Source: Pyropia yezoensis
Taxonomy: Eukaryota; Rhodophyta; Bangiophyceae; Bangiales; Bangiaceae
Assembly (NCBI GenBank): GCA_009829735.1
Contig: CM020619.1
Coordinates: 33,334,283-33,398,282 of the forward strand
Direction: 5' to 3'
Length of the DNA: 64,000 nt
In this document: positions 20,178 through 64,000 of the stretch, piece after piece
Numbering within the stretch: the stretch's first letter is position 1
Layout: every line of letters begins with the position of its first letter
Notes under the pieces: model-generated
Told to the model about the DNA's origin: nothing
The model's input: the letters and a program-made list of their open reading frames with translations, nothing else
Database searches by the model: none
Position numbers and translations under genes: made by a program

Positions 20178-23100
20178 ATGATGCCGACGCACAGTGGGGC
20201 CGAGCCCTTGCCCAAGATCGAGAAGTTGAACGCTGGCAACCACCTGGCATGGTTTGCCAACATGGAGCACATGCTCAAGCTCAAGAACTGCTGGACGGCC
20301 GTGAAGGAAGAGCCGCCCATTCGTGTGGCGCGCATCCTGCAGGAGGAGGCTCCCACCCCGTCGCGGGCTGAGCTTGACGTCATCGTCGCAGGGACTCCCA
20401 CGACGGAAGCAGGGAAGGTGGCCAAGTCGAAGGCGCGGGCCCAACTTGGCACCCTTGATTGGCAGCGACTGGACGAGGTGGCCATGGCAACCATGCACCT
20501 TCACGTGGAGCCCGTGCACCACGTCACTTTCCGGGTCAGTAAGACGGCACGGGAGGCGTGGGAGAAGCTGCAGATGGCGTTCCGCTCCCAGAGCATGGCC
20601 ATGGCGCTCGAGATGCGTCGCCAGCTCTCAGGGATCCGTATGAAGGCGGAGGAGCCCATGCTGGAGTACATCAACCGCGGAACGCTCCTCCAGTACGAGC
20701 TGGGGCAGCTCGGGCAAGGGCCTCCTGAGAGCGACCTGGTGGCCGCCATCCTGGGCGGGGTACCCTCGGCATACGACACCACTGTGGAATTGCTGTCTGG
20801 GCAGGAGACACTGACGATGGCAAAGGTGACCGACCGCCTGATGGCCACGGAGGTGCGGCACAAGGCGCTGTATGGGAGCGGGTCAGATCAGGCGGTTGCC
20901 TTCGGCGCAATGCCTTTCACCACTGCGTCTGCCCACCCCAACAACCGACGAGAGGTGGAGGTCTGTACGTACTGTCGCTACCCAGGCCATGGGCGCTGGG
21001 AGTGCCGCCGACTGGCACGTGACCAGGAGCCGTCACTGGGGGGAGATAAGCGCTTCGGCGGCTACCCCCAGCAGCAGCCAACTGCGGGTAACCGCCCACG
21101 TGGGAGCCGCGGCGGGAACCAGAGCCGCGCCCACAGCCCCTTCTTCGGCAATGACGGCCGAGGCAGCAACGAACGCGGCGGCGGGGCGCCGCCTGGTGGT
21201 GGCCTCGCCATGATGGCGGGCACCTCAATGCCGTTCATGGACGGCTGGATCATTGACAGCGGTGCCTCGCATCATATGACTGGCAAGATGAGCCTGCTGT
21301 CAGACGTCCATGACATCGAGCCCATCACCATCACGATGGCGAACGGGGAAGACAGCGTGGCAACCTCAGCAGGCACTGTCACCATCGACATTGTCTGCTC
21401 AGGTGGGGGCGTCGTCCCTCTGAACCTACGAGACGTGCTGGTGGTGGAACCCCTGTCCGTCAACCTCTTCTCCATTACTGCCATCATGCAGCACAGGTTC
21501 GAGGCGACTTTTGGTCGGGGTGCCGTGGCCATCACTCGAAGTGGGCGAAACGTCTTCTCTGGGCTGTCCCACGGGTCAGTGTTCGTCCTGCCCACTGTGC
21601 CGGCGGGCACAACGGCCATGGCGGCTGCTGCCGTCTCTGCTGGGACCTGGCACCGACGCTTTAACCACATCGGCGCTACATCGCTGCGACACGCGCGCGA
21701 CTCCGTTGCGGGTTTCGTCACCGCCCCCTCCAACGAGCCGGTGGGGGCCCTTTGCGACCCGTGCGTGCGCAGTAAGCAGACCAGGCCGCCGTTTCCGCCC
21801 TCGAAAACAGCCACTACGCTGGCGCTGGAGCTGGTACACACGGACGTGTGCGGGCCGATGCCCGTCGCCTCCATCGGTGGCGCACGCTACTTCGTCACCA
21901 TCCTGGATGACCACACCGGTTGGAAGGCGGCTGTCCCGATTGTGCGCAAGTCCGATGCGGCGGACGTGCTTAAAGACGTGCTACAGGAGTGGGAGACGCG
22001 GAGCGGCAACAAGGTCAAGGCCATCCGCAGCGACAACGGGGGGGAGTACCTATCAAACGCCTTCGAAGGATGGATGCGTGGCAAGGGCATCCAACACCAG
22101 TTGACGACGCCCTACACGCCTCAGCAAAACGGGGTGGCTGAGAGGTACAACCGCACGCTGATGGAGCGCGTCGTCGCGATGCTGGCCGACGCCGGCCTGC
22201 AAAAGGTGTACTGGGGGGAGGCAGTGATGGCGGCAAACTACGTGCTGAACCGCACGCCGCAGGCTGGGGCAGCCGTCACGCCGTACGAGGCGTTCCATGG
22301 CACCAAGCCCAACGTGTCCCACCTGCGTGTGTCTGGGTGCCCCGCCTACGTCATGGTGCCGCGCGAGAAGCGCCGCAAGCTCGACCAACGGAGCACCCGG
22401 GGCATCTTCCTGGGCTACGCCGAAAATGTCAAGGCCTACCGCATCTCCGTGGATGGGGCGATCAAGATTAGTCGTGACGTCACCTTTGATGAGGCAGCCG
22501 TCGTGCAGCGTGCCGAGGGAGAGGCGGCCACCCAGCTTGCCACCTTTGTGGAGGTTGACGACGTTCCCGTCGTAGTCCCGAATGACGTGCGCTCCACAAC
22601 GGGCGCCGCCGCCGATGTCGGCACAGAGGCAGCCAACGATGTGGCGCACGGCGACGCCTCGGTCGGTAACCCCGGAGGCGCGTCCGACTTGAGCACGCTA
22701 AGCGACGCCATTTCGGCGGCCCGGCTGCTCACGGACCAGGCAGCACCTGGCGGCGCCGGCAGCTCAACGACAGGCAACACGGCCGAGGACGGCCCACTGT
22801 TGACAAACGGGCAGGATGCTGCGGCACCCGTGGGAGCCACGCCGAGCGGGTCTACAGCTCCCATGACCAACCCTACCTCAAGATATCCTATTCGCACCAG
22901 GTACCGCCCACAGAGACTCGGAGGGGAGGACGCGCCGGAGGAGTCGGGACCAAGCAGCGGCACGGCGCTTGCGACGCACGGCGCAGGCAACCCTGACAAG
23001 ATGACTATGGCGAGGGCCAAAAAGGAGCCTGACTGGCCCGACTTCCACCCGCTCGCCTGCACCCCCAGAGCACAATCGACGCCGTTGCCACCCCCACACC

Positions 23101-28690: not shown

Positions 28691-29159
28691 TGTGGCAAAA
28701 CCTCGCGCGCAACCAACACCTAAGCTGGGGCGGCGCACAAGGGCTGCCTTTCGTGTCGGGGGAACCGGAAAAATTGCAAGTCGCACACAAGCTATCTCTG
28801 TTCTGCACCAAACCTTCTTCCACGACGCAAGAAGTTGGTGTGTGGACCGACAGTTTCTTGGTCGGGACGGGGAAGCGAGGCCCGGCCCAGGTGTCCCTCC
28901 CCTCTTCCCTCCAGAGTCCCCTCGGAATCTCGCCAATCAGAATCGCTTACCCCAGTACCTGCCCACAGGGCCACACGAAAATTCAGGATGAGAAATTTGC
29001 AGAAAACGCTGCGACCAAGTTGGATATACTATTCTGCACAGTAACCCTTAGTTAGGATAATCCGAGATCAAGTGCAAAGAGAGAAACGGGTCAGACCAGC
29101 TGTCTCACGCAGCCCCGTGTGGCACACCCTGCCCCCTGCGTGGGGCCAGTACTGCCACA
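28691..29159 (-). mobile_element. Solo LTR of the chromoviral element 1 family
   Basis: This 469-bp repeat begins TGTGGCA and ends TGCCACA, a perfect 7-bp terminal inversion. It is flanked on both sides by GACGG (28686-28690 and 29160-29164), a 5-bp target site duplication. It aligns along its whole length with the LTR at 54766-55232 and has the same orientation. An LTR with an intact target duplication and no internal region is the product of LTR-LTR recombination. Confidence 0.9.
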
Positions 29160-54765: not shown

Positions 54766-55232
54766 TGTGGCAAAAACCAGTCGCACACCCAGCACCCAAG
54801 TTGGGGTGGTGCACAAGGGCTGCCTCCCGTGTCGGAGGAACCGGAAGAAGTGCAAATCGCACACACGCTGTCTTTGCTGTGGGGCAATCCCCCCACCAGT
54901 AAACAAGAAGATGGTGTGTGGGCCAACAGTTTCTTGGTCGGGACGGGGAAGCGAGGCCAAGCCCCTCTGTCCCTCCCCTTATCCCCCCAGAGTCCCCTCA
55001 GAATCTCGCCACTCGGAATCTCCCACCTCAGCACCTGCCCACCGGGCCACACGAAAATTCAAGACGATAAATGCAGAAAGCCCTCAAGTCCACGTTGGAT
55101 TTACTACTAAGCTAACTATCCCTAACTTAGGGAATATGGACCCAAATGCATGGGGAGAAACGGGTCAGGCTAGCTGCCTGCCGCCCCTTGCATGGCACGT
55201 GTTGCCCCCCTACCTGGGGTCAATACTGCCAC
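54766..55232 (-). mobile_element. 3' LTR of element 1
   Basis: 467 bp, TGTGGCA...TGCCACA ends, homologous over its length to the solo LTR at 28691-29159. The outside 5 bp are gccac (54761-54765), the expected target duplication. The adjoining purine tract on the minus strand shows this is the 3' LTR of a minus-strand element. Confidence 0.88.
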
Positions 55233-55245
55233 ACTCCCTTCTCCT
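55233..55245 (-). promoter_or_regulatory. Polypurine tract of element 1
   Basis: On the minus strand GAGGAGAAGGGAG abuts the LTR start TGTGGCA directly, the position of the plus-strand primer in reverse transcription. It fixes the element's orientation. Confidence 0.8.
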
Positions 55246-55577
55246 CAGTTCCGACCGACCCGGTCGGCCCTGCGAGGGGGTATGAAAACGCACATCGCGG
55301 CGTTGGGGGCGCGACTTGCTGTCCCCCCGGTACGTCACGCGGACGTAGAGGCGGTCACGTCGACCGCCCCTTTTCTCAAGGTTGCGCACTTGGCAGCTTG
55401 CTCTTATCGGTGCTCCCCTTACCACCTCCTCCTTCACCAACACATCCCCTTCACCTGACCCTGGGCCGCCCCACGCTGGGGAGGCCACCCGTCTACCCGC
55501 GATCCAAGCCCCCCTCAACTCGAGGCAGGTCTCGTGCAGCTGCAACCGAGTCGTCTCTCCCTAACTTGGGGAGAGCC

Positions 55578-57519
55578 ATGGTGACCCCGGGGTTGGAGAC
55601 TGACTCCCTGGATGAACGGATGGAGGATACACCCTGCGATGTAGCGTCCGCCGGGACTTCCGGCGGGGGCTCCACGGTCGCTCCAGGGGATGGGATGCCC
55701 GCTTCACCCGGCTTTGGGTCGGCGGCGGGAACTCCCCCGGAGGTAGGCCCCGTTGCTCCACGGGAGGCCTTGGGGAGGTGGTTCTACCCCCCTTGGCCCC
55801 TGTACGAGGAGGGGTTGACGGTTATCCGCTGTGGCCGACTTGGCACAGCGATGAGTCGCGTCTGGGACAGCCTACGAAAGAAGTTCTCCCGTAGGGTCGG
55901 GTTTCCTGCTGACTTCAAGACGGACCAGTTTGCCTTCCTGGATGAGGACGAGGTCGAAGACGTGCAGCGGGCCAAGAACTTGTTGGCCCGCGGGGGTACT
56001 ATCGCGGGCACCGGCGATGTGCCGACCTTCACTTGGGACGCGGTGGCAACTGGCCCTCCGTACCTACGTGGCTTCGATCCGCACAGTCATCACTTCAACG
56101 TGCGGATGGAGAAGGACTACCGGCGAGGTCCCTACCTGGTGACCTCGTCTCAACTCGAGTTTCCGCAGCAATCACCTGCTAGCAAAAAGCAATACTACCC
56201 CAAGAAGCCCGAGTGGTGGCCTCAAGTCGAGGTCCCCTATGGGTTCCCGGCGCTTTTACCTCGGTTGATCGACCACTTCGGCTCCGTCATGTTGACGGCT
56301 AGCCCGGACCACCTGGTGTTCGCCATGTTGGCAACCCAGTGGCTTCTTGAGGTCATGTCGACCTGGGTGTCTTGTGTCCAGCGGCGGGGGATGTTCTGGC
56401 ATCTATTCCCCGGCTTATCCAAGGTTAGGAGCAGCTCACCCCTCAGCTAGTTGCTGAGGGGTGCCCGTCGGGACAGCTCGCTCTACTCGAGGAGACGCTG
56501 CGTCTCCACAAGCTCATCGAGTGGGAAAGCATCGAGCACAAGTTGCGCCGATCTTCTCGCGGGCCCAAAGACGATGGCACACTTCGCCAGTTCGGCTGGG
56601 TCGGCCGTGAGCTTCATGACGGCCGCGTGGTCCTCAAGGAGGGGTTGGGCATCTAGGACTACCCGTATGCCCCGGGGGTTGAGCGCCACGCTTCGCCTCC
56701 CCCGGACCAGGCAATCGTGGTGGCCGTGGCCTCCCACGACGACTACATGGCTCAACCCATTGCAGGGGCCCCGAGTAGGGGTCGCGGTTACTCTCAGGCT
56801 CCGCCTAGTCAGCGAGCCCCTCCTCTTCCTCCTGTCCCATTCCAGCCGCACGGGGACATCCCGATAGGCGTTGCTGTTGAGTCATCCACTCCGGTGTCCC
56901 CCAACTTGGGGGTCACCTTACTCACGGTATACCCCAAGTTGGTACTGCCGGCCGCGCCCTTGACTTCCGAGATGATGATCACCACGTTGGTGCGCACCAT
57001 TTCTTGGTTGGCCGCGTCGGCTGCAACACTCCAAGTAACCGAGACTCCTCAACTTGAGGAGCGCGTTCGTACTGTCGTGGCGACCGCGAGTTGCGAGTCG
57101 GAAGCGGGGTTCATGACGACCGAATTGGCTCGTATCGGGTCGATAGTGCCCCTGTCGGCCCCACTTGGGCGCGGCAAGCGTTGAGCAAGCCGGGTACACT
57201 CGGCTACTCGCCGTCGTGGCCGTCACTTGCGGCGGTCTCCCTTCGTGTCGGAAGACGAGTTGACTTATTCCGTTTGGAGTCCTCTACCCTGTCGGAGACG
57301 GAGTCTGTCCGGCGTCCGCGTCGCCAACTTGCACGCAAGACCAAGCGGGTTAATAGCCGCGGTCGTCGCCACTCGCGCGACTGTGAGGGGCGCGACGGTC
57401 CCGACTTGGAGCCGCCGCCCCCTCCGACGAGGGGAGAACGTTTTCGGCGTGGGTCTCGCCGCTCGCCTCCGCGTGAGGGCGAGGGTCGAGGTGTTGGGGA
57501 GTCTAGCATGCGTGCCTAG
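55578..57519 (+). pseudogene. Antisense ORF of element 1 (broken)
   Basis: It lies on the strand opposite to pol, between pol and the polypurine tract. The most likely start is the ATG at 55578 (MVTPGLETDSLDER); an in-frame ATG at 55146 lies inside the LTR. Segment 1 (to the stop at 56450) contains WFYPPWPLYEEGLTVIRCG, VRMEKDYRRGPYLVTSS and FGSVMLTASPDH. Segment 2 continues in another frame (LALLEETLRLHKLIEWESIE, then KEGLGI) with a TAG at 56654, to 57184. Segment 3 (to 57519) is Arg/Ser-rich (RRPRRQLARKTKR). Landmarks FGSVM, QRRGMFWHL and KEGLGI align in order with FSSVL, RRQGRLFHL and VPGLGI of the element 2 antisense protein. No outside family is recognised. The basic C-terminus suggests nucleic-acid binding; that is inference. 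Confidence 0.65.
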
Positions 57520-57636
57520 CTGGCAGCTGCCTTGGTTTTGAGAGTGTGTGGGTAAGCGCTGCAGTTAAAAGCCACTCTGCGTACCACTTCGACCTGAAGC
57601 ACTCTCTTGGCACCGTCACTTGGCCTTCCCTCACGT

Positions 57637-59170
57637 TCAGAAAGGGCAGTAAGGGTCGATATTATTCCGGTCGCAATACGCCCGGACCATTTCAGCGGGA
57701 AGACCCTCCACGTACTCCCACGTATCGTCTTTGGCCTGATAGCCGAACCAACGCACCCTCAACATGAGGCGGTTAGTGTCCTCATCCCACCCGTGGTCGA
57801 TGAACTTATCTAACACGTACTCCTGCGGGCCCTGTTGAGTCGCCGGTCGCGAAGGCAGGCGCCACGCCTTCAGCGCTCACGCCCAAGCCGGGTTGCCTGC
57901 CGGAGGTGGTGCAACCAGCACGCGACGTGGGGTCACAAAAGCGAGGGGTACTTCCCAGGTAGATGAGTGAACCTGCGAATTGTAGGCGGTTGTAAGAATA
58001 GAAATGTACTGGTCCCACGTTTTCACGTCCTCACTCACATAGTGACGCAGCTGTTGAACAATAGTCTTGTTGAAGCGCTCCACCTGCCCATTAGTTTGTG
58101 GGTGGTAGGGGGTGGCATAATTTGCCTGAACCCCCTACATATCCAGCACTCCCTAAAATAGTACGGACGCAAACTGCGGTCCGTTGTCCGACAGTGTACT
58201 ATCCGGAATGCCATACGCGGCAACCCAGTGATCTAGGAAGGCTGACACGACCGACATGGCCGTGATCTCTGCCAGAGGGATCGCTCGCGTTAGTTTCGTG
58301 AAGCGATCGCAGATGACCAGGAGGTATTGGTTGCCATCCTCCGTCACTGGCAGTGGCCCAAGGATGTCCATTGCCAACGCGGCAAAGGGCTTCTTAGCCG
58401 GGAACAGCAGCATAGCCGTGGTAGGCCGCCATTCCATCAGACGGTTCTGTGCACAACTGGTTCAGGCAGCCACCCAACTGTAGATGTCCACCACCATTGA
58501 CGGCCAGCAGCACCTGGTCCTCAGGGTCTGGTATAGTTCACTAGACCCCAGGTATCCACCTGTGGAAGCGTTATGCTCTCTTTCAAGGATACTGTCCTTG
58601 AGGGATACGGGGACGACAAGTTGTTCAGTCCCCTGAATTACCTCAAGAGGAGGCCATCGTCTCCGACGAAGAATCGCGTCTCCGCCACCGTATCCAGCGT
58701 ATCCCTCTGCGACTTGAAGAAGGAGTCTTGGGCTTGGGCCTTCACCACCTCTTCCATGGACAGGGGCAAGTACATCTTGTTCCCGGGCGCCTCGGGGTTC
58801 AACGCCTGACCCGAGCGCAAGACTACCCCCACGATGGGGATGTCATCATCGACTGAGTTAGTGTCCAGCCCCTCGGTAGGTACCCGAGAGAGACCGTCGG
58901 CTAGGGCATGTTGCCTGCCGGGACGACACTCAATATCAACGTTGAAGGGTGCCAGTCGCACCCTCCACCTGTTGAGGCGGGTGTTGGTACAATCCGTCTT
59001 AAAGATATACTGCAACTCGCGGTGGTGACAGCGGATGAGGAACTTCTCACCCTCTAGGTAGTGACGAAGTGACGTCACCGCCCACACCACTGAGAGTCCT
59101 TCCAACTCGGTGACTCCATAGTTTTTCTCAGCCGAGTTCAGTCCCTTGCTGAAGTATTCTACCGGCAAGT
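57637..59170 (-). pseudogene. Element 1 pol: RNase H, integrase, chromodomain
   Basis: RNase H (LPVEYFSKGLNSAEKNYGVT, then CRPGRQHALADGLSRVP) runs to a frame break near 58640. The zinc-binding region follows with ERE-HNASTGG and then TSCAQNR, where the first Cys codon of the CxxC pair has become TGA (58462-58464). The integrase core has MDILGPLP, SDNGPQF and NGQVERFN with 35 residues between the last Asp and Glu; two TAG codons (58153-58155, 58135-58137) interrupt it and a TGA follows at 57877. In the same frame, after QEYVLDKFIDHGWDEDTN, comes a chromodomain (LRVRWFGYQAKDDTWEYVE) ending at the natural TGA at 57637. The chromodomain places it with chromoviruses, whose integrases target chromatin marks. 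It is dead: one frameshift and four internal stops. Confidence 0.92.
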
Positions 59171-59533
59171 TGTAGCACAATAGGAATCCGTCGCACGTCC
59201 ACTCTCAGGGAACACTCACCAAGGGGGATCGGCACCAACGTCACCGGGAGGCCAAGGCTGCTGTCCTTGGAGCGCAAGCCACGGGACCAAGATGGGAGCC
59301 CAAATGGGAGGGGTTTGTTGTTCTGCCTTGGCCGGCGGTGGATTCACCGCCGGCCCCCTCGTTATAAACCCTCGGAGACACTACTAACTACCCTCCACCC
59401 CAAGATGCAAGTCCCTCTGGTCATACGTAACTTATAGATACCGTGACCAGTACGGACTCTCAAATTGAAAGCCAAGGATTAGAAGTAGCCCCCCTAACAT
59501 TAGGGTCACAATACGGCCAACCATATGGCTACA
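59171..59533 (-). mobile_element. 3' LTR of element 2
   Basis: 363 bp, TGTAGC...GCTACA ends (6-bp inversion). The left edge coincides with the point where RNase H homology of element 1 stops; the right edge abuts a pyrimidine tract (purine on minus). It contains a hairpin (59330-59355) and a TTATAAAC motif near 59361-59368 that could direct plus-strand transcription of the antisense ORF. No second copy is in the window, so the borders are inferred. Confidence 0.65.
59330..59355. repeat. 11-bp perfect hairpin within LTR 2
   Basis: GGCCGGCGGTG and CACCGCCGGCC around the loop GATT, a few bases upstream (plus sense) of the TATAAA-like motif. Confidence 0.85.
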
Positions 59534-59535
59534 TA

Positions 59536-59546
59536 TCCCCCCCTTA
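59536..59546 (-). promoter_or_regulatory. Putative polypurine tract of element 2
   Basis: On the minus strand AAGGGGGGGGA lies two bases before the LTR start TGTAGCC, the expected plus-strand primer site. Confidence 0.55.
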
Positions 59547-60120
59547 GATTCGGCCCGTCCTCGGGTCGAGTTGCATTCGGGTTACCGAAGGTAAGTGGGT
59601 CGCGTGACCGTTTACCAGTCGGGTGGGGCTTTGCGCCCTGTCGCGACAGACACTCCTTTTCGAGTTTGTCTGAGGGGGGTGTTCCCCTTTGTGTGGTACA
59701 CGCACGATCCGTTTTCCGGACCGTTAAATTCCCGATGCGGGCTTCTGTTCACGACCCCCCCTTTCCGAGGGGTGGTGCAAGCGGATCCGCCACCAGGTGT
59801 CTGGTGGTAGGGGAGCCCCTCTCGTGTTACCGAGTGAATGGGGGCGGCCGCTCCCGCTTTTCGCGGGAGCGGCTTCGGGGTGAACCCCTCTTGGTTGCCC
59901 CGTACGGGGGCGTGGCCCCGTCCCGCCCAGGTGCCTGGGTGGAGTGCGTTCGTAGCCCTGTGGGGCGCGGGTCGACCCGCGTGCCTGCGGCGCTTCTCGT
60001 GGCTGTTTGTGGTCATAAGCGCGGGTGCCCGCGCTTCCCTGGCTCGTCCCGGTTGTCCCACCGTACCGGGTCGTAGCCGTCGACGGCTTGTGGGCGCGGG
60101 GGACTCTGCCACCCGTTATC

Positions 60121-62652
60121 ATGTCCTATCCCCAGGTGCTTGGGGAGGAGGAAGACCTCCTGATCGGGGAGGAGATGGAGGACGACGCGCCTGTCGGTCC
60201 TGCCGCCGCGCGTTACGGGGCGAGCTCGTCTGAAGACGACGAGCCTGCGGTGTCCGTCCGTCTGGCGGCCGGAGGACTGTCGTCCGTGTGCAGTGGCACG
60301 ACGGTGCCGTCGGTCGGAGGTCAACCCGGCGGTCAACCGCTCGTGGCGGCTTCTACCCCCTCTCTTCCGGCTGCCCGGATGGAGCCTGGTGCCGGTGCCG
60401 GCTCGCCGCAGCTAACCCAAGATGGCCCGCCCTACGGCGGAAGTGGCGATCCCCGGCCGACTCCGGCTGGGCAAGGTGGTCCGGGAGTCCGGACGGTGCA
60501 TCCTGAACGCGACCCCGACGTTGACGCGGGTGGTGGTGGTGGCGCGACACCCGGGGTGGCCGGTCAAGACGGTGCGGGTGCCCGCACGGCTGGTGCTCAG
60601 GCTCCCGAGGCTGTCAAAGTGCCTCCCCCTTCCGAGGCGGGGGCGACGTCGACGGGTGGTGCCGGCGCCGGTATCCTACCCGCGGTGCCGCGGGCGTCGG
60701 GCGGTCAAGACGCTCCTTTCCCCATGGCGGTTGACACCGGGAGCTACTCCGGGCGGGTGCCCGCCCTACTTCTTCCTCCTCGTCCCCGTGCTCTGGCGCC
60801 GGTGCACCTACCCGTTGGGCTTCCGCCGGCGCCGGCGCTTCTTCCTGGGCCGGCCCGGGTTGCCCCGTTGGGTGGCTGCGTTGGCTTGGTCGGTGGCGGC
60901 GTCGCCTCTGCGGTTGGCGGTACCGCCTCCGCGAGTGGCGGCGACGCCTCTACGGTGGGACATCCCCCGTTGTCGGTCTCCGAGCTGGTGGCCCGGGTGC
61001 GCAGCTTGACCGTGCAAGAGCCCATGGATTCGGGCGGTCGGATGCGGGTGGACTTCCACCCGTCGGATCGCCGCGGAGGTACCTCCCGTCCGGTCCCGTT
61101 GGACCCCTGTTGGGAGCGGGAGTTGGCTCGGCTGGTTGCCCAGCCTGACGCGGTTCGCGCCGAGCATCATTGGATACTCAGCCAGCCGGACGACCGGCAT
61201 GCTCAACTCTGGCGCGCCCGGGTCGGGCGGCCAGAGGCTGCCCTCCTCCCCGCCTTTGGGGTGTGCGACTTGGTTGCCCCCGCGCTGCCGCGGGAGGTGG
61301 ATTACCCTGCGGGTGCCCGCGGGGTGGCTGCTACCCAGCCCCCTGTGGCCTTCGGGCAGCTCGTGCCTGGTACCAACCGGTATCCCGGTTTGGATTACTA
61401 CCCGGGGGATTCCCCGTATCTGTGGCTGACGCCGCCCTTCCCGACCATGGGTGGCCTGAAGTCGGCGTCCAGCTGGCGTCGAAACCATGGTGTCATGGCG
61501 GACCCATTCCGCACGGATGTAACGTGCGCGTTGCAGACCGGTAACGGTCGTGCGCCCGTATACACTCTGTTGCGCCCGCCTGGGTGGCAAGAGGGGTGGG
61601 AGCCCGCCCCGGCTTTCCGGTTCGACACCGGTCCTTGCCTGCGCTACTTCAGCAGTGTGCTGGCCGCTCGGCCCACGCATGTGCTGCAGGGTGTCCTCAC
61701 CCTCGAGGTTACCCTCGGGCAGGTTTCTTCCTTCCTGTTGTCGGCCCGCCGACAGGGCCGGCTCTTCCATCTTCCGACGGGTGTCCGTCGGCACCTTGCG
61801 GAGCTAGGCGTTACCGCCATTGCTACTGGGACGGGGTTAACCCGTGAGCAGACTGCGCTCGTGGCCGTTCACGATGCCGTGAACTGGTCGGCGGTGGCGA
61901 CCTTGCCGCCGTTCCGCGACACGCAACCGGGAACGCTCCCGTTGCCTCGTCACTCGCTACGTATCCGCCGAGTTATCTCGGGTGAGGATGGATACCAGGG
62001 GTGGGCATCCACCGAGTCGGTACCCGGTCTGGGTATTCCCGTGGTCCTGCCCGACCCTCTCCAGGTGGGAACCCCCTGGTTCGGTAAACCGACTCCTATG
62101 GGGACGGGTCGCCGTCGCCGTGAGTGGGACTCCACTGGTGGGGGCCGCGAGACGTATCGTCGTCGTGGGGAGTTCCACCGGGTTCCCGGTGGGCGTTCTG
62201 CCCAGGAGTCTGGTCCTCCTTCACGGTCGTACCGTGCTCCTTACCAGCTACCGCCGCCTCCGGCGGTGGCGGTGTCCACTCCTCCGGCTGTAGCTCCGGT
62301 TCCTCCCGTGGCATCGCCGGCTCCCGTCATGCCCGACGGGGGTCCTCGCTTGTGGTATGAGGGCGTGAACGCCCTTCTCTCTCGTGAGTTGACGGAGGCG
62401 CCTCCGGTTAGCTGGGGGGACATCCCCCCAGCTGCTGCGCTGGTCGGTACCGCGCGTTGCCTCGGTTGGGTGCTCAACCGCCTACAGATGCCTCTGGATG
62501 CTGTGGAGACTGGTGACAGCACTCTGGTGCAACTTAGCGCTGAGGTAGCTCAGGCGCTCAACCGGCGTGAGATAGCCGACCGTTGGAGTACGGAAGTGTA
62601 CGCGACGACGCGTGACTGGCCCCCTTCTGCTGGCGGGGGTAACCTCTTCTGA
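60121..62652 (+). CDS. Antisense ORF of element 2, intact, unknown function
   Basis: This is an 843-residue uninterrupted frame from the ATG at 60121 (MSYPQVLGEEEDLLIGEEME) on the strand opposite to pol. The first ~300 residues are acidic then Gly/Pro/Ala-rich and probably disordered. A globular-looking centre (about residues 310-660) includes PLDPCWERELARLVAQPDAV, GLDYYPGDSPYLW, FSSVLAARPTH and VPGLGIPVVLPDP. A basic stretch (TGRRRREWD, ETYRRRGEFHRVPGG) and a Pro-rich linker follow, then a C-terminal ~90-residue unit (WYEGVNALLSRELTEAPPVS). It shares ordered landmarks with the broken ORF of element 1. No zinc knuckle, protease or RT motif is visible. By position it matches the antisense extra ORFs of plant Tat-lineage elements; the function is unknown. 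The intact frame suggests it was under selection until recently. Confidence 0.75.
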   Translation: MSYPQVLGEEEDLLIGEEMEDDAPVGPAAARYGASSSEDDEPAVSVRLAAGGLSSVCSGTTVPSVGGQPGGQPLVAASTPSLPAARMEPGAGAGSPQLTQDGPPYGGSGDPRPTPAGQGGPGVRTVHPERDPDVDAGGGGGATPGVAGQDGAGARTAGAQAPEAVKVPPPSEAGATSTGGAGAGILPAVPRASGGQDAPFPMAVDTGSYSGRVPALLLPPRPRALAPVHLPVGLPPAPALLPGPARVAPLGGCVGLVGGGVASAVGGTASASGGDASTVGHPPLSVSELVARVRSLTVQEPMDSGGRMRVDFHPSDRRGGTSRPVPLDPCWERELARLVAQPDAVRAEHHWILSQPDDRHAQLWRARVGRPEAALLPAFGVCDLVAPALPREVDYPAGARGVAATQPPVAFGQLVPGTNRYPGLDYYPGDSPYLWLTPPFPTMGGLKSASSWRRNHGVMADPFRTDVTCALQTGNGRAPVYTLLRPPGWQEGWEPAPAFRFDTGPCLRYFSSVLAARPTHVLQGVLTLEVTLGQVSSFLLSARRQGRLFHLPTGVRRHLAELGVTAIATGTGLTREQTALVAVHDAVNWSAVATLPPFRDTQPGTLPLPRHSLRIRRVISGEDGYQGWASTESVPGLGIPVVLPDPLQVGTPWFGKPTPMGTGRRRREWDSTGGGRETYRRRGEFHRVPGGRSAQESGPPSRSYRAPYQLPPPPAVAVSTPPAVAPVPPVASPAPVMPDGGPRLWYEGVNALLSRELTEAPPVSWGDIPPAAALVGTARCLGWVLNRLQMPLDAVETGDSTLVQLSAEVAQALNRREIADRWSTEVYATTRDWPPSAGGGNLF

Positions 62653-63102
62653 TGGTTGTGGGAGTGAGAGTGAGGGACCCGGTGACCCTTATGGTGGCCG
62701 GGTCTTAGTGAGTATAAACTCATCCCCTTCGGGGGCATTGCTTGCCTCTGTTTGCCGCCCTGGGGAGTACCCCTTCTGGCTCAGTGGTGCCTTGCCTCCC
62801 GTCCAACTTCTTCCGGTTGCTTCATGCTTGGGGAGGCCATCCTCCCTCACTTTGTGTCTTGGCTTGGGGAGGTCATCCTCCCTTGTAAGCCCCCTAGCTA
62901 CTTCGATATTATCGGAGTTAGCCTCTACCTTTAAGTTAACTTACTAAGGTTCAGGTTTTACTTAGTTACCTAAGCTTGGCTGGACTTAGAAACCCAAGTC
63001 CGATTTGACTTAGAAACCTAAGTCTGCCATAACCATGCCACACCCTACTCAGTAGGTATAAGCCCCACCCCCCAACATCCGAAGTCGGTGTCGGTTGGGT
63101 TG
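62653..63102. other. Spacer between convergent antisense ORF and pol of element 2
   Basis: Holds two copies of a CTTGGGGAGG(C/T)CATCCTCCCT unit (about 62827-62886) and two palindromic repeats (62982-63024). Both transcripts would end here, so these may serve bidirectional 3' end formation. Confidence 0.5.
62982..63024. repeat. Two tandem palindromic repeats
   Basis: GGACTTAGAAACCCAAGTCC (62982-63001) and GACTTAGAAACCTAAGTC (63007-63024); each has 7-8-bp complementary arms around a short A-rich centre. Located between the converging ORFs. Confidence 0.85.
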
Positions 63103-64000
63103 TTACAGGAGGCGGCGTCGCCTCATGTACGGCATGAGTAGTTGGCGGGGTATATTCGCCGCCTGTTCCCAGGTGGGTGAGTCGTAACCGACCCACATTA
63201 CCTTGACGTACCAGGGTTCTGGTAGGTCTGGGTCGGTATGTCCGACGATGCTCTCCACTTGGTACGGGATTCCATCCGGTCCCACCGGGTCTTCCGACCG
63301 GTGGGTGGTAAGCGCCTTATGTAGCAACCCAGCCGGTACCGGCGGAGGATGTTCTGGCTTTGGCGCTGGTGTGACATCGTTAATACTGATGCGTTGTATC
63401 TCCGTATCGGAGTGGAGGATAACCGAGTGGTCATCTCTGTGGAGGATCTGGTACGGTCCCTTGACCGGTTGCATGAGCTTGTTCCCTCGGAACTTCTGGT
63501 GTCTGATATAGACCCAGTCGCCTGTCATCAGAATAGCGTTGCGCACCCGTAGTCGGGCGTCGAAGATCTTCTTGTATCGAAGTTGTGTTCTGTCAAGGGC
63601 ACCCTTGAGCTTAGGAATCATCCACGATAGCTTGGCCAACCAAGCTAGGCGGATGCGTTCGGCCGGTCGGCCCTTCGGTGTATCATACCGAGTGCACCTG
63701 CCGGGTGGCAGCGTCAGGTTACCGACCCCTAGTGGCATGACCCACTCCAGTGGGGCGATGTTTGTGCTCCGATGTGGCCTGGCATTGTATGCCAGGGTGA
63801 GTACGGACAGAAGCCTGTCCCAAGTGTTCGTGTGCTCGGCCACGTAGCACTGTAGCATCTTAAAGATGGTGCGGTTAAACCGCTCCACTTGCCCGTTGGT
63901 TTGCGGGTGGTAGTCGGATGCCCGACGTGGTTCGATGCCGAACATGCCCATGACCTTAGTGCAGAATGCAGACGTCAGGTTTGCTCCGTTGTCGGAGAGG
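63103..64000 (-). CDS. Element 2 pol C-terminus: integrase and chromodomain (partial)
   Basis: The frame enters at the window edge within the integrase core (LSDNGANLTSAFC; Asp at 63991-63993) and reaches the catalytic Glu in NGQVERFN (63883-63885) with 35 residues between them. The C-terminal integrase part follows (NARPHRSTNIAPLEW, LRVRNAILMTGDWVYIRHQK, GPYQILHRDDHSVIL). A chromodomain follows (YQVESIVGHTDPDLPEPWYV, then VMWVGYDSPTWEQAANIP), and the protein ends RRRRLL at the TAA at 63103. There is no internal stop in 299 codons, in contrast to element 1. The protein joins reverse-transcribed DNA into host chromatin. The 5' part, including RT and protease, lies beyond the window. Confidence 0.93.
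   Translation of the reverse strand, partial: LSDNGANLTSAFCTKVMGMFGIEPRRASDYHPQTNGQVERFNRTIFKMLQCYVAEHTNTWDRLLSVLTLAYNARPHRSTNIAPLEWVMPLGVGNLTLPPGRCTRYDTPKGRPAERIRLAWLAKLSWMIPKLKGALDRTQLRYKKIFDARLRVRNAILMTGDWVYIRHQKFRGNKLMQPVKGPYQILHRDDHSVILHSDTEIQRISINDVTPAPKPEHPPPVPAGLLHKALTTHRSEDPVGPDGIPYQVESIVGHTDPDLPEPWYVKVMWVGYDSPTWEQAANIPRQLLMPYMRRRRLL

Follow-up and report, generated by a model that had tools for sequence, protein, structure and literature searches.

Two families of chromodomain-bearing Ty3/gypsy-type retrotransposons, probably from a bangialean red alga, share a homologous antisense reading frame between pol and the 3′ LTR

The locus raises the question of why two different LTR retrotransposons should both carry a long ORF between pol and the 3′ LTR, on the strand opposite to pol, and whether this ORF is a gene. 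The window, i.e. the whole stretch of 64,000 nucleotides that was analysed (C2:33334283-33398282), was compared with the genome to which it belongs (107.5 Mb searched, 11 contigs), whose owner is probably a bangialean red alga. Positions past the window edge are given in window numbering carried on beyond it and are termed window-frame positions. The reading favoured here, at a rough probability of 85%, is that two Ty3/gypsy-type chromodomain families carry one homologous antisense accessory gene, whose protein would act in or for the nucleus. The layout in the original prediction, minus-strand pol, plus-strand ORF and LTR in two Ty3/gypsy-type elements, is confirmed by tblastn, LTR and PBS/PPT data.

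At least three elements are nested in the region. Element 2 is inserted into the pol of element 1 rather than adjoining element 1: in the tblastn alignment (P0002 numbering) the pol of element 1 stops at residue 534 (59168) and restarts at residue 534 (window-frame 70049), and CAAGT flanks the insertion on either side. The third element belongs to the element-2 family and starts at window-frame 71822 (L043 from 2205), near the remains of element 1; its ORF2 relative displays 69-73% identity and a frame change near residue 335. The features of element 1 in the window are the following.

54766-55233, minus strand: 3′ LTR of element 1, 468 bp, matching the LTR of a young two-LTR family copy at 91.9%
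55575-57516, plus strand: antisense ORF1, broken in the window copy, located by a tblastn search using P0001, an intact protein of the family
57643-59168, minus strand: RNase H-integrase-chromodomain part of element 1 pol, cut by element 2, located by tblastn with P0002, RNase H by Pfam
28691-29159: solo LTR whose family is related to family 1 and whose match to the family-1 LTR is 75.6%, with the perfect duplication GACGG on both sides

The solo LTR had been described beforehand as a homologue of the element 1 LTR with a perfect target duplication, and it is real on both counts. An ORF of about 650-850 codons had been expected in both elements; element 2 carries one of 875 codons, while ORF1 of the window's element 1 is broken by three in-frame stops into open pieces of 434, 138 and 155 codons and also displays a frame change, with overlapping tblastn matches in two frames at 56369-56405. 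The element 1 pol in the window contains four in-frame stops. Elsewhere in the window, a stretch at 21747-22172 resembles integrase (30% to family-1 pol residues 769-909) and may be what is left of another retroelement. Scanning the window with Rfam and for tRNAs gave no match.

Element 2 is complete, with paired LTRs, a 5-bp target duplication, a PBS and a PPT, and its features extend across the window edge.

59166-59170, no strand: target-site duplication CAAGT of element 2, with a second copy just after window-frame 70048
59171-59533, minus strand: 3′ LTR of element 2, 363 bp, pairing with the 5′ LTR
59534-59547, minus strand: polypurine tract of element 2, the sense strand ending in AAGGGGGGGATA before the LTR
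60025-62652, plus strand: antisense ORF2, 875 codons from GTG, 843 from the first ATG (60121)
61261-61896, plus strand: ORF2 segment homologous to ORF1, 23% identity to P0001
63103-63999, minus strand: C-terminal part of element 2 pol with integrase and chromodomain, the match running on to window-frame 66549
window-frame 68025-68681: gag-like match of element 2 (25%)
window-frame 69686-70048: 5′ LTR of element 2, 97% alike to the 3′ LTR, with 11 differences

The left LTR is flanked by the purine tract and the right one by the primer site, thus placing the sense of element 2 on the minus strand. With the LTRs outside, it follows that ORF2 is antisense and lies within the element, between pol and the 3′ LTR. 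Among 500 first-order Markov sequences of element 2 composition and of the length of this region, the longest stop-free stretch reaches 511 codons, with a median of 241. On the sense strand the longest open stretch opposite ORF2 spans 331 codons, within the range of the Markov sequences, and that opposite the family-1 ORF spans 195. The start of the PBS (TTGGTGGAGCAGCAGGGGAC) is common to element 2 and family 1.

The hallmarks of LTR retrotransposons extend beyond element 2. LTR pairs with 5-bp duplications occur in element 2, L030, L025 and the copy formed by L028 with L042, and a PBS next to the 5′ LTR with a purine tract next to the 3′ LTR is seen in element 2 and L030. The assignment to Ty3/gypsy is based on the order RT-RNase H-integrase in pol and on a gag with a zinc knuckle (Pfam, family-1 proteins P0002 and P0003), and the best PDB relative of P0002 is the Ty3 Gag-Pol (E 5e-117). 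As in chromoviruses, the Ty3/gypsy pol bears a chromodomain after the integrase. A profile of two C-termini matches HP1 (1.3e-7) and Clr4 (1.7e-6) in PDB, and single sequences give matches below the Pfam cut-off (E 8e-4 and 0.025). By phylogeny, Ectocarpus elements that bear a chromodomain reportedly fall outside the chromoviruses (PMC12477816), and a chromodomain alone thus does not decide chromovirus membership. Families 1 and 2 are termed chromodomain-bearing here. Among the Porphyra yezoensis data analysed in PMC3350952, retrotransposon chromodomains were not found.

Across the genome each ORF has more than 130 listed matches. The N-terminal ORF1 query finds at least 97, and two C-terminal ORF1 queries combined find at least 168 distinct places. 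A full-length family-1 copy, assembled from L028 with L042 (read separately), spans 9378 bp in the order LTR-antisense ORF-pol-gag-LTR. Its antisense ORF measures 724 codons between stops and 647 counted from the ATG, and its gag, read in an overlapping frame, contains a zinc knuckle. This copy is very young, its 468-bp LTRs differing at 1 of 468 positions, and it is flanked by the target duplication CACTC. Thus LTRs on both sides of pol and the antisense ORF, as had been anticipated, are present both in element 2 and in a full-length member of family 1. ORF1 is open without an internal stop in 17 of the 27 copies that cover at least 95% of the 648-residue query, 14 of these 17 being near-identical young copies. 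The first ORF2 search listed 55 matches, of which 27 are stop-free with a frame of at least 840 codons (two of the 27 being pieces of one place).

The ORF could instead be a separate mobile element or gene inserted between pol and the LTR, perhaps repeatedly, and it had been foreseen that the ORF might turn up as an element with its own LTRs or that full-length members might lack it. In family 1 the antisense arrangement between pol and the 3′ LTR (aORF-3R) is found at 113 of the 131 pol C-terminus matches listed, ORF1 adjoining on the other strand; 112 of these are recognized by the ORF1 C-terminus and one by the N-terminal part only. The remaining 18 stand without an ORF1 partner among the matches listed. 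Of the 112 copies in which the gap between pol and ORF1 was measured, 111 have 123 nt and one has 124 nt. In the reverse direction, 103 of the 131 ORF1 matches listed have a listed pol neighbour. In family 2, 40 of 132 pol matches pair with ORF2 at 433-517 nt, with none on the wrong strand, a count in which both sides are matches listed (49 of the 55 matches of the first ORF2 search plus the listed ones). Most of the family-1 pol matches listed thus keep the ORF; in family 2, members lacking it may exist. In one family-2 copy the pol C-terminus (C2:1959432) is 95% identical to element 2 and ORF2 (C2:1960795) only 75%; judging from such sequences ORF2 may be faster-evolving or exchanged between subfamilies.

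A separate element would fit the position of the ORF at the same place in both families and the 28 of 131 listed ORF1 matches without a listed pol neighbour. Against it stand the near-fixed spacing from pol and, among the 28, the ORF1 of L025, which does have an adjoining pol piece. Moreover, in 18 loci of ten kb each (L023-L040), chosen among the 97 ORF1 matches listed, an element LTR adjoins the other side of ORF1 in all 18 (partially in L038), and pol covering at least 30% of the query lies on the opposite strand in 17, L030 holding a shorter pol piece. The synonymous divergence of ORF1 also tracks that of pol (r = 0.88 over 91 pairs from 14 selected loci), with departures, e.g. L037, that may reflect exchange of segments. 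With an ORF that keeps its distance from pol and diverges along with it, and with no separate element bearing its own LTRs seen, this alternative is the least probable of those considered. L025 (4607-9624) and L030 (4059-9076) are 5018-bp derivatives with most of pol deleted and an identical deletion junction, and both have nearly identical LTR pairs and an open ORF1, but their target duplications differ (ATCGG in L030). The pol-deleted form thus moved while ORF1 stayed open and is, by these sequence features, a non-autonomous derivative of family 1.

Whether the antisense frame is read as protein was addressed through dN/dS, calculated from Nei-Gojobori counts with ORF1 taken from the 27 copies of at least 95% coverage out of 33 projected. 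For ORF1 the median is 0.285 (range 0.198-0.870, 259 pairs with dS > 0.08). Pairs without an internal stop fall at 0.226-0.370, although the pairs are non-independent and the intact copies represent about four diverged lineages. The original prediction had asked whether the ratio across copies lies near 1; for intact ORF1 pairs it lies below 1, at 0.23-0.37 when rounded. The window's decayed ORF1 gives 0.42-0.67 against its nearest decayed relatives, as expected of dead copies. ORF1 is conserved like other proteins of the element: pol, at about 0.16, gives 0.161 (18 pairs, 7 copies, 95% coverage) or 0.159 (range 0.104-0.975; 98 pairs, 18 copies, 60% coverage), and gag gives 0.29-0.37 with a median of 0.35 (3 pairs). 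ORF2 gives 0.27-0.33 in 5 pairs from 4 copies; since L043 carries a frame change and L025 covers only 61% of ORF2, only one of these pairs (L044 with the window copy, 0.33) joins two open copies of nearly full length.

A six-frame control of five pairs (four ORF, one pol) places the lowest dN/dS in the coding frame every time, and the stops in that frame are only those of decayed copies. In the four ORF pairs the antisense frame gives 0.24-0.33, and four of the other five frames give 1.1-2.0. The mirror frame is next lowest at 0.32-0.48 because its third positions are common with those of the coding frame, yet it contains 43-47 stops per pair. In intact pairs one frame of the six combines a low dN/dS with zero stops, and it is that of the antisense ORF. 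An ORF arising as the shadow of a sense gene was rejected, the sense strand containing 17-32 stops per frame and the six-frame test favouring the antisense frame. That the antisense reading frame is a selected product is thus well supported by the sequence comparisons.

The same figures bear on the proposal that the functional product is the antisense RNA and not a protein. Double-stranded RNA formed with pol transcripts would damp the element as a copy-number control, and the ORF would be incidental or secondary. The matched ends of ORF1 and pol face each other about 123 nt apart, which makes overlapping transcripts plausible, and a dsRNA role is discussed for plant elements in PMC7264820. 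Selection on the amino-acid reading of one frame is, however, not predicted by an RNA acting alone, which is accordingly unlikely, while remaining the strongest of the alternatives; RNA and protein could both be functional.

The two antisense ORFs match each other over about 90-230 residues with 22-28% identity. Among 28 pairings of four ORF1 with seven ORF2 proteins, 20 reach 31.2-52.8 bits and exceed all controls (best of 1000 locally shuffled P0004 per query, 26.9-30.4 bits; reversed proteins, up to 26.9; gag and pol, up to 24.3), and the eight that do not exceed the controls all involve the partial proteins P0009 and P0010. Comparison of the ORF1 and ORF2 alignments by hhalign gives a probability of 86% (E 5e-6). 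The common core comprises about 190 residues, and ORF1 has in addition a basic Arg/Ser-rich end. The pol proteins of families 1 and 2 are 42% identical over 1112 residues. Homologous ORFs in families so far apart indicate that the ORF was present before the family split, which is most simply how the sequences are explained, and ORF1/ORF2 is supported as an accessory gene that is both old and under selection. Because of the same homology, the idea that each family captured its ORF independently was rejected. Of the two origins put forward earlier, independent capture or an older feature, the older feature thus holds within these algae.

The protein database holds one 97% relative of ORF1 and five relatives of ORF2. 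The nearest named ones of ORF2 are Pyropia vietnamensis (Bangiales) proteins P0007-P0010, annotated as hypothetical proteins, and the naming of the probable host rests in part on these matches. No Pfam family was found at E ≤ 1 in ORF1, ORF2 or 7 members of A1, PDB searches with ORF1 and ORF2 gave no usable relative (best E 0.043, taken as chance) and plasmid records gave no match. The AlphaFold model of the ORF2 core has a pLDDT of 31. Recent capture of a host gene by one of the families, with later passage to the other, would agree with the hypothetical-protein annotation of the P. vietnamensis relatives and with host-gene capture by LTR elements, which is known (PMC7264820). An identity of just 22-28% in the matching part nevertheless indicates that no recent transfer took place, so that this origin is very improbable, about as much so as a separate inserted element, although a host homologue may exist.

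For the antisense accessory gene, a mechanism can be sketched by analogy with Grande. An antisense transcript would start at a promoter lying within or close to the 3′ LTR and run against the genomic RNA. It would be translated into a protein comprising the shared core and, in ORF1, the basic end. The predicted protein may act in the nucleus on the RNA, integration or transcription of the element, as suggested by what is described of Grande in PMC7264820, and may aid or regulate retrotransposition, as proposed there for the maize Grande antisense gene. The chances are about even that ORF1/ORF2 is an undescribed protein family which predates the family split, defines a red-algal chromodomain branch and has an antisense-encoded replication job, with an origin independent of Grande/Retand and Boty. 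If true, this would suggest that LTR elements have a general need which is answered by an accessory gene placed antisense at their 3′ end. A case that looks unrelated, from a far-removed group of hosts, with young members and purifying selection, would offer another system for probing such genes. It also holds a warning for annotators, as the P. vietnamensis relatives stand in databases as hypothetical proteins.

Among known systems, extra ORFs in plant chromoviruses are said, in work of Steinbauerova from 2011, to be rare and 5′. Antisense ORFs at the place found here are listed for Grande, RIRE2, Retand, PvRetro13 and the fungal Boty, and the function of antisense extra genes of LTR retrotransposons is called unsettled, in PMC7264820. 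The original prediction had cited antisense 3′ ORFs from the plant Tat lineage; they are known there but also outside Tat, in Boty (PMC7264820; PMC8365987). The plant Tat/Retand elements (Grande gene23, RIRE2, Retand) are alike in that most copies carry, between pol and the 3′ LTR, a conserved ORF in antisense, as PMC7264820 and PMC11963269 describe. Their carriers differ, being non-chromovirus plant elements (PMC11963269), whereas the red-algal-looking carriers have chromodomains. TRP28 (PF04195), reported in PMC11963269 from flowering plants only, was not found in ORF1/ORF2, neither of which matched a Pfam family; families 1 and 2, with their chromodomain, thus fall outside Tat/Retand. Among the open-licence papers listed, no account of such an ORF in elements that are red-algal or carry a chromodomain was seen, which is weak evidence of novelty. 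Boty of Botrytis is similarly an LTR element with an antisense gene, brtn, between pol and the 3′ LTR, a likeness drawn from the layout described in PMC7264820 and PMC8365987. HBZ of HTLV-1 is likewise an accessory protein read against gag-pol (PMC11963269 and PMC7264820). In contrast to families 1 and 2, which are LTR retrotransposons, HBZ is retroviral, and it is likened by layout. What may tentatively be regarded as new is the host group, the chromodomain-bearing carriers and the protein family, the layout itself being known from plants and fungi.
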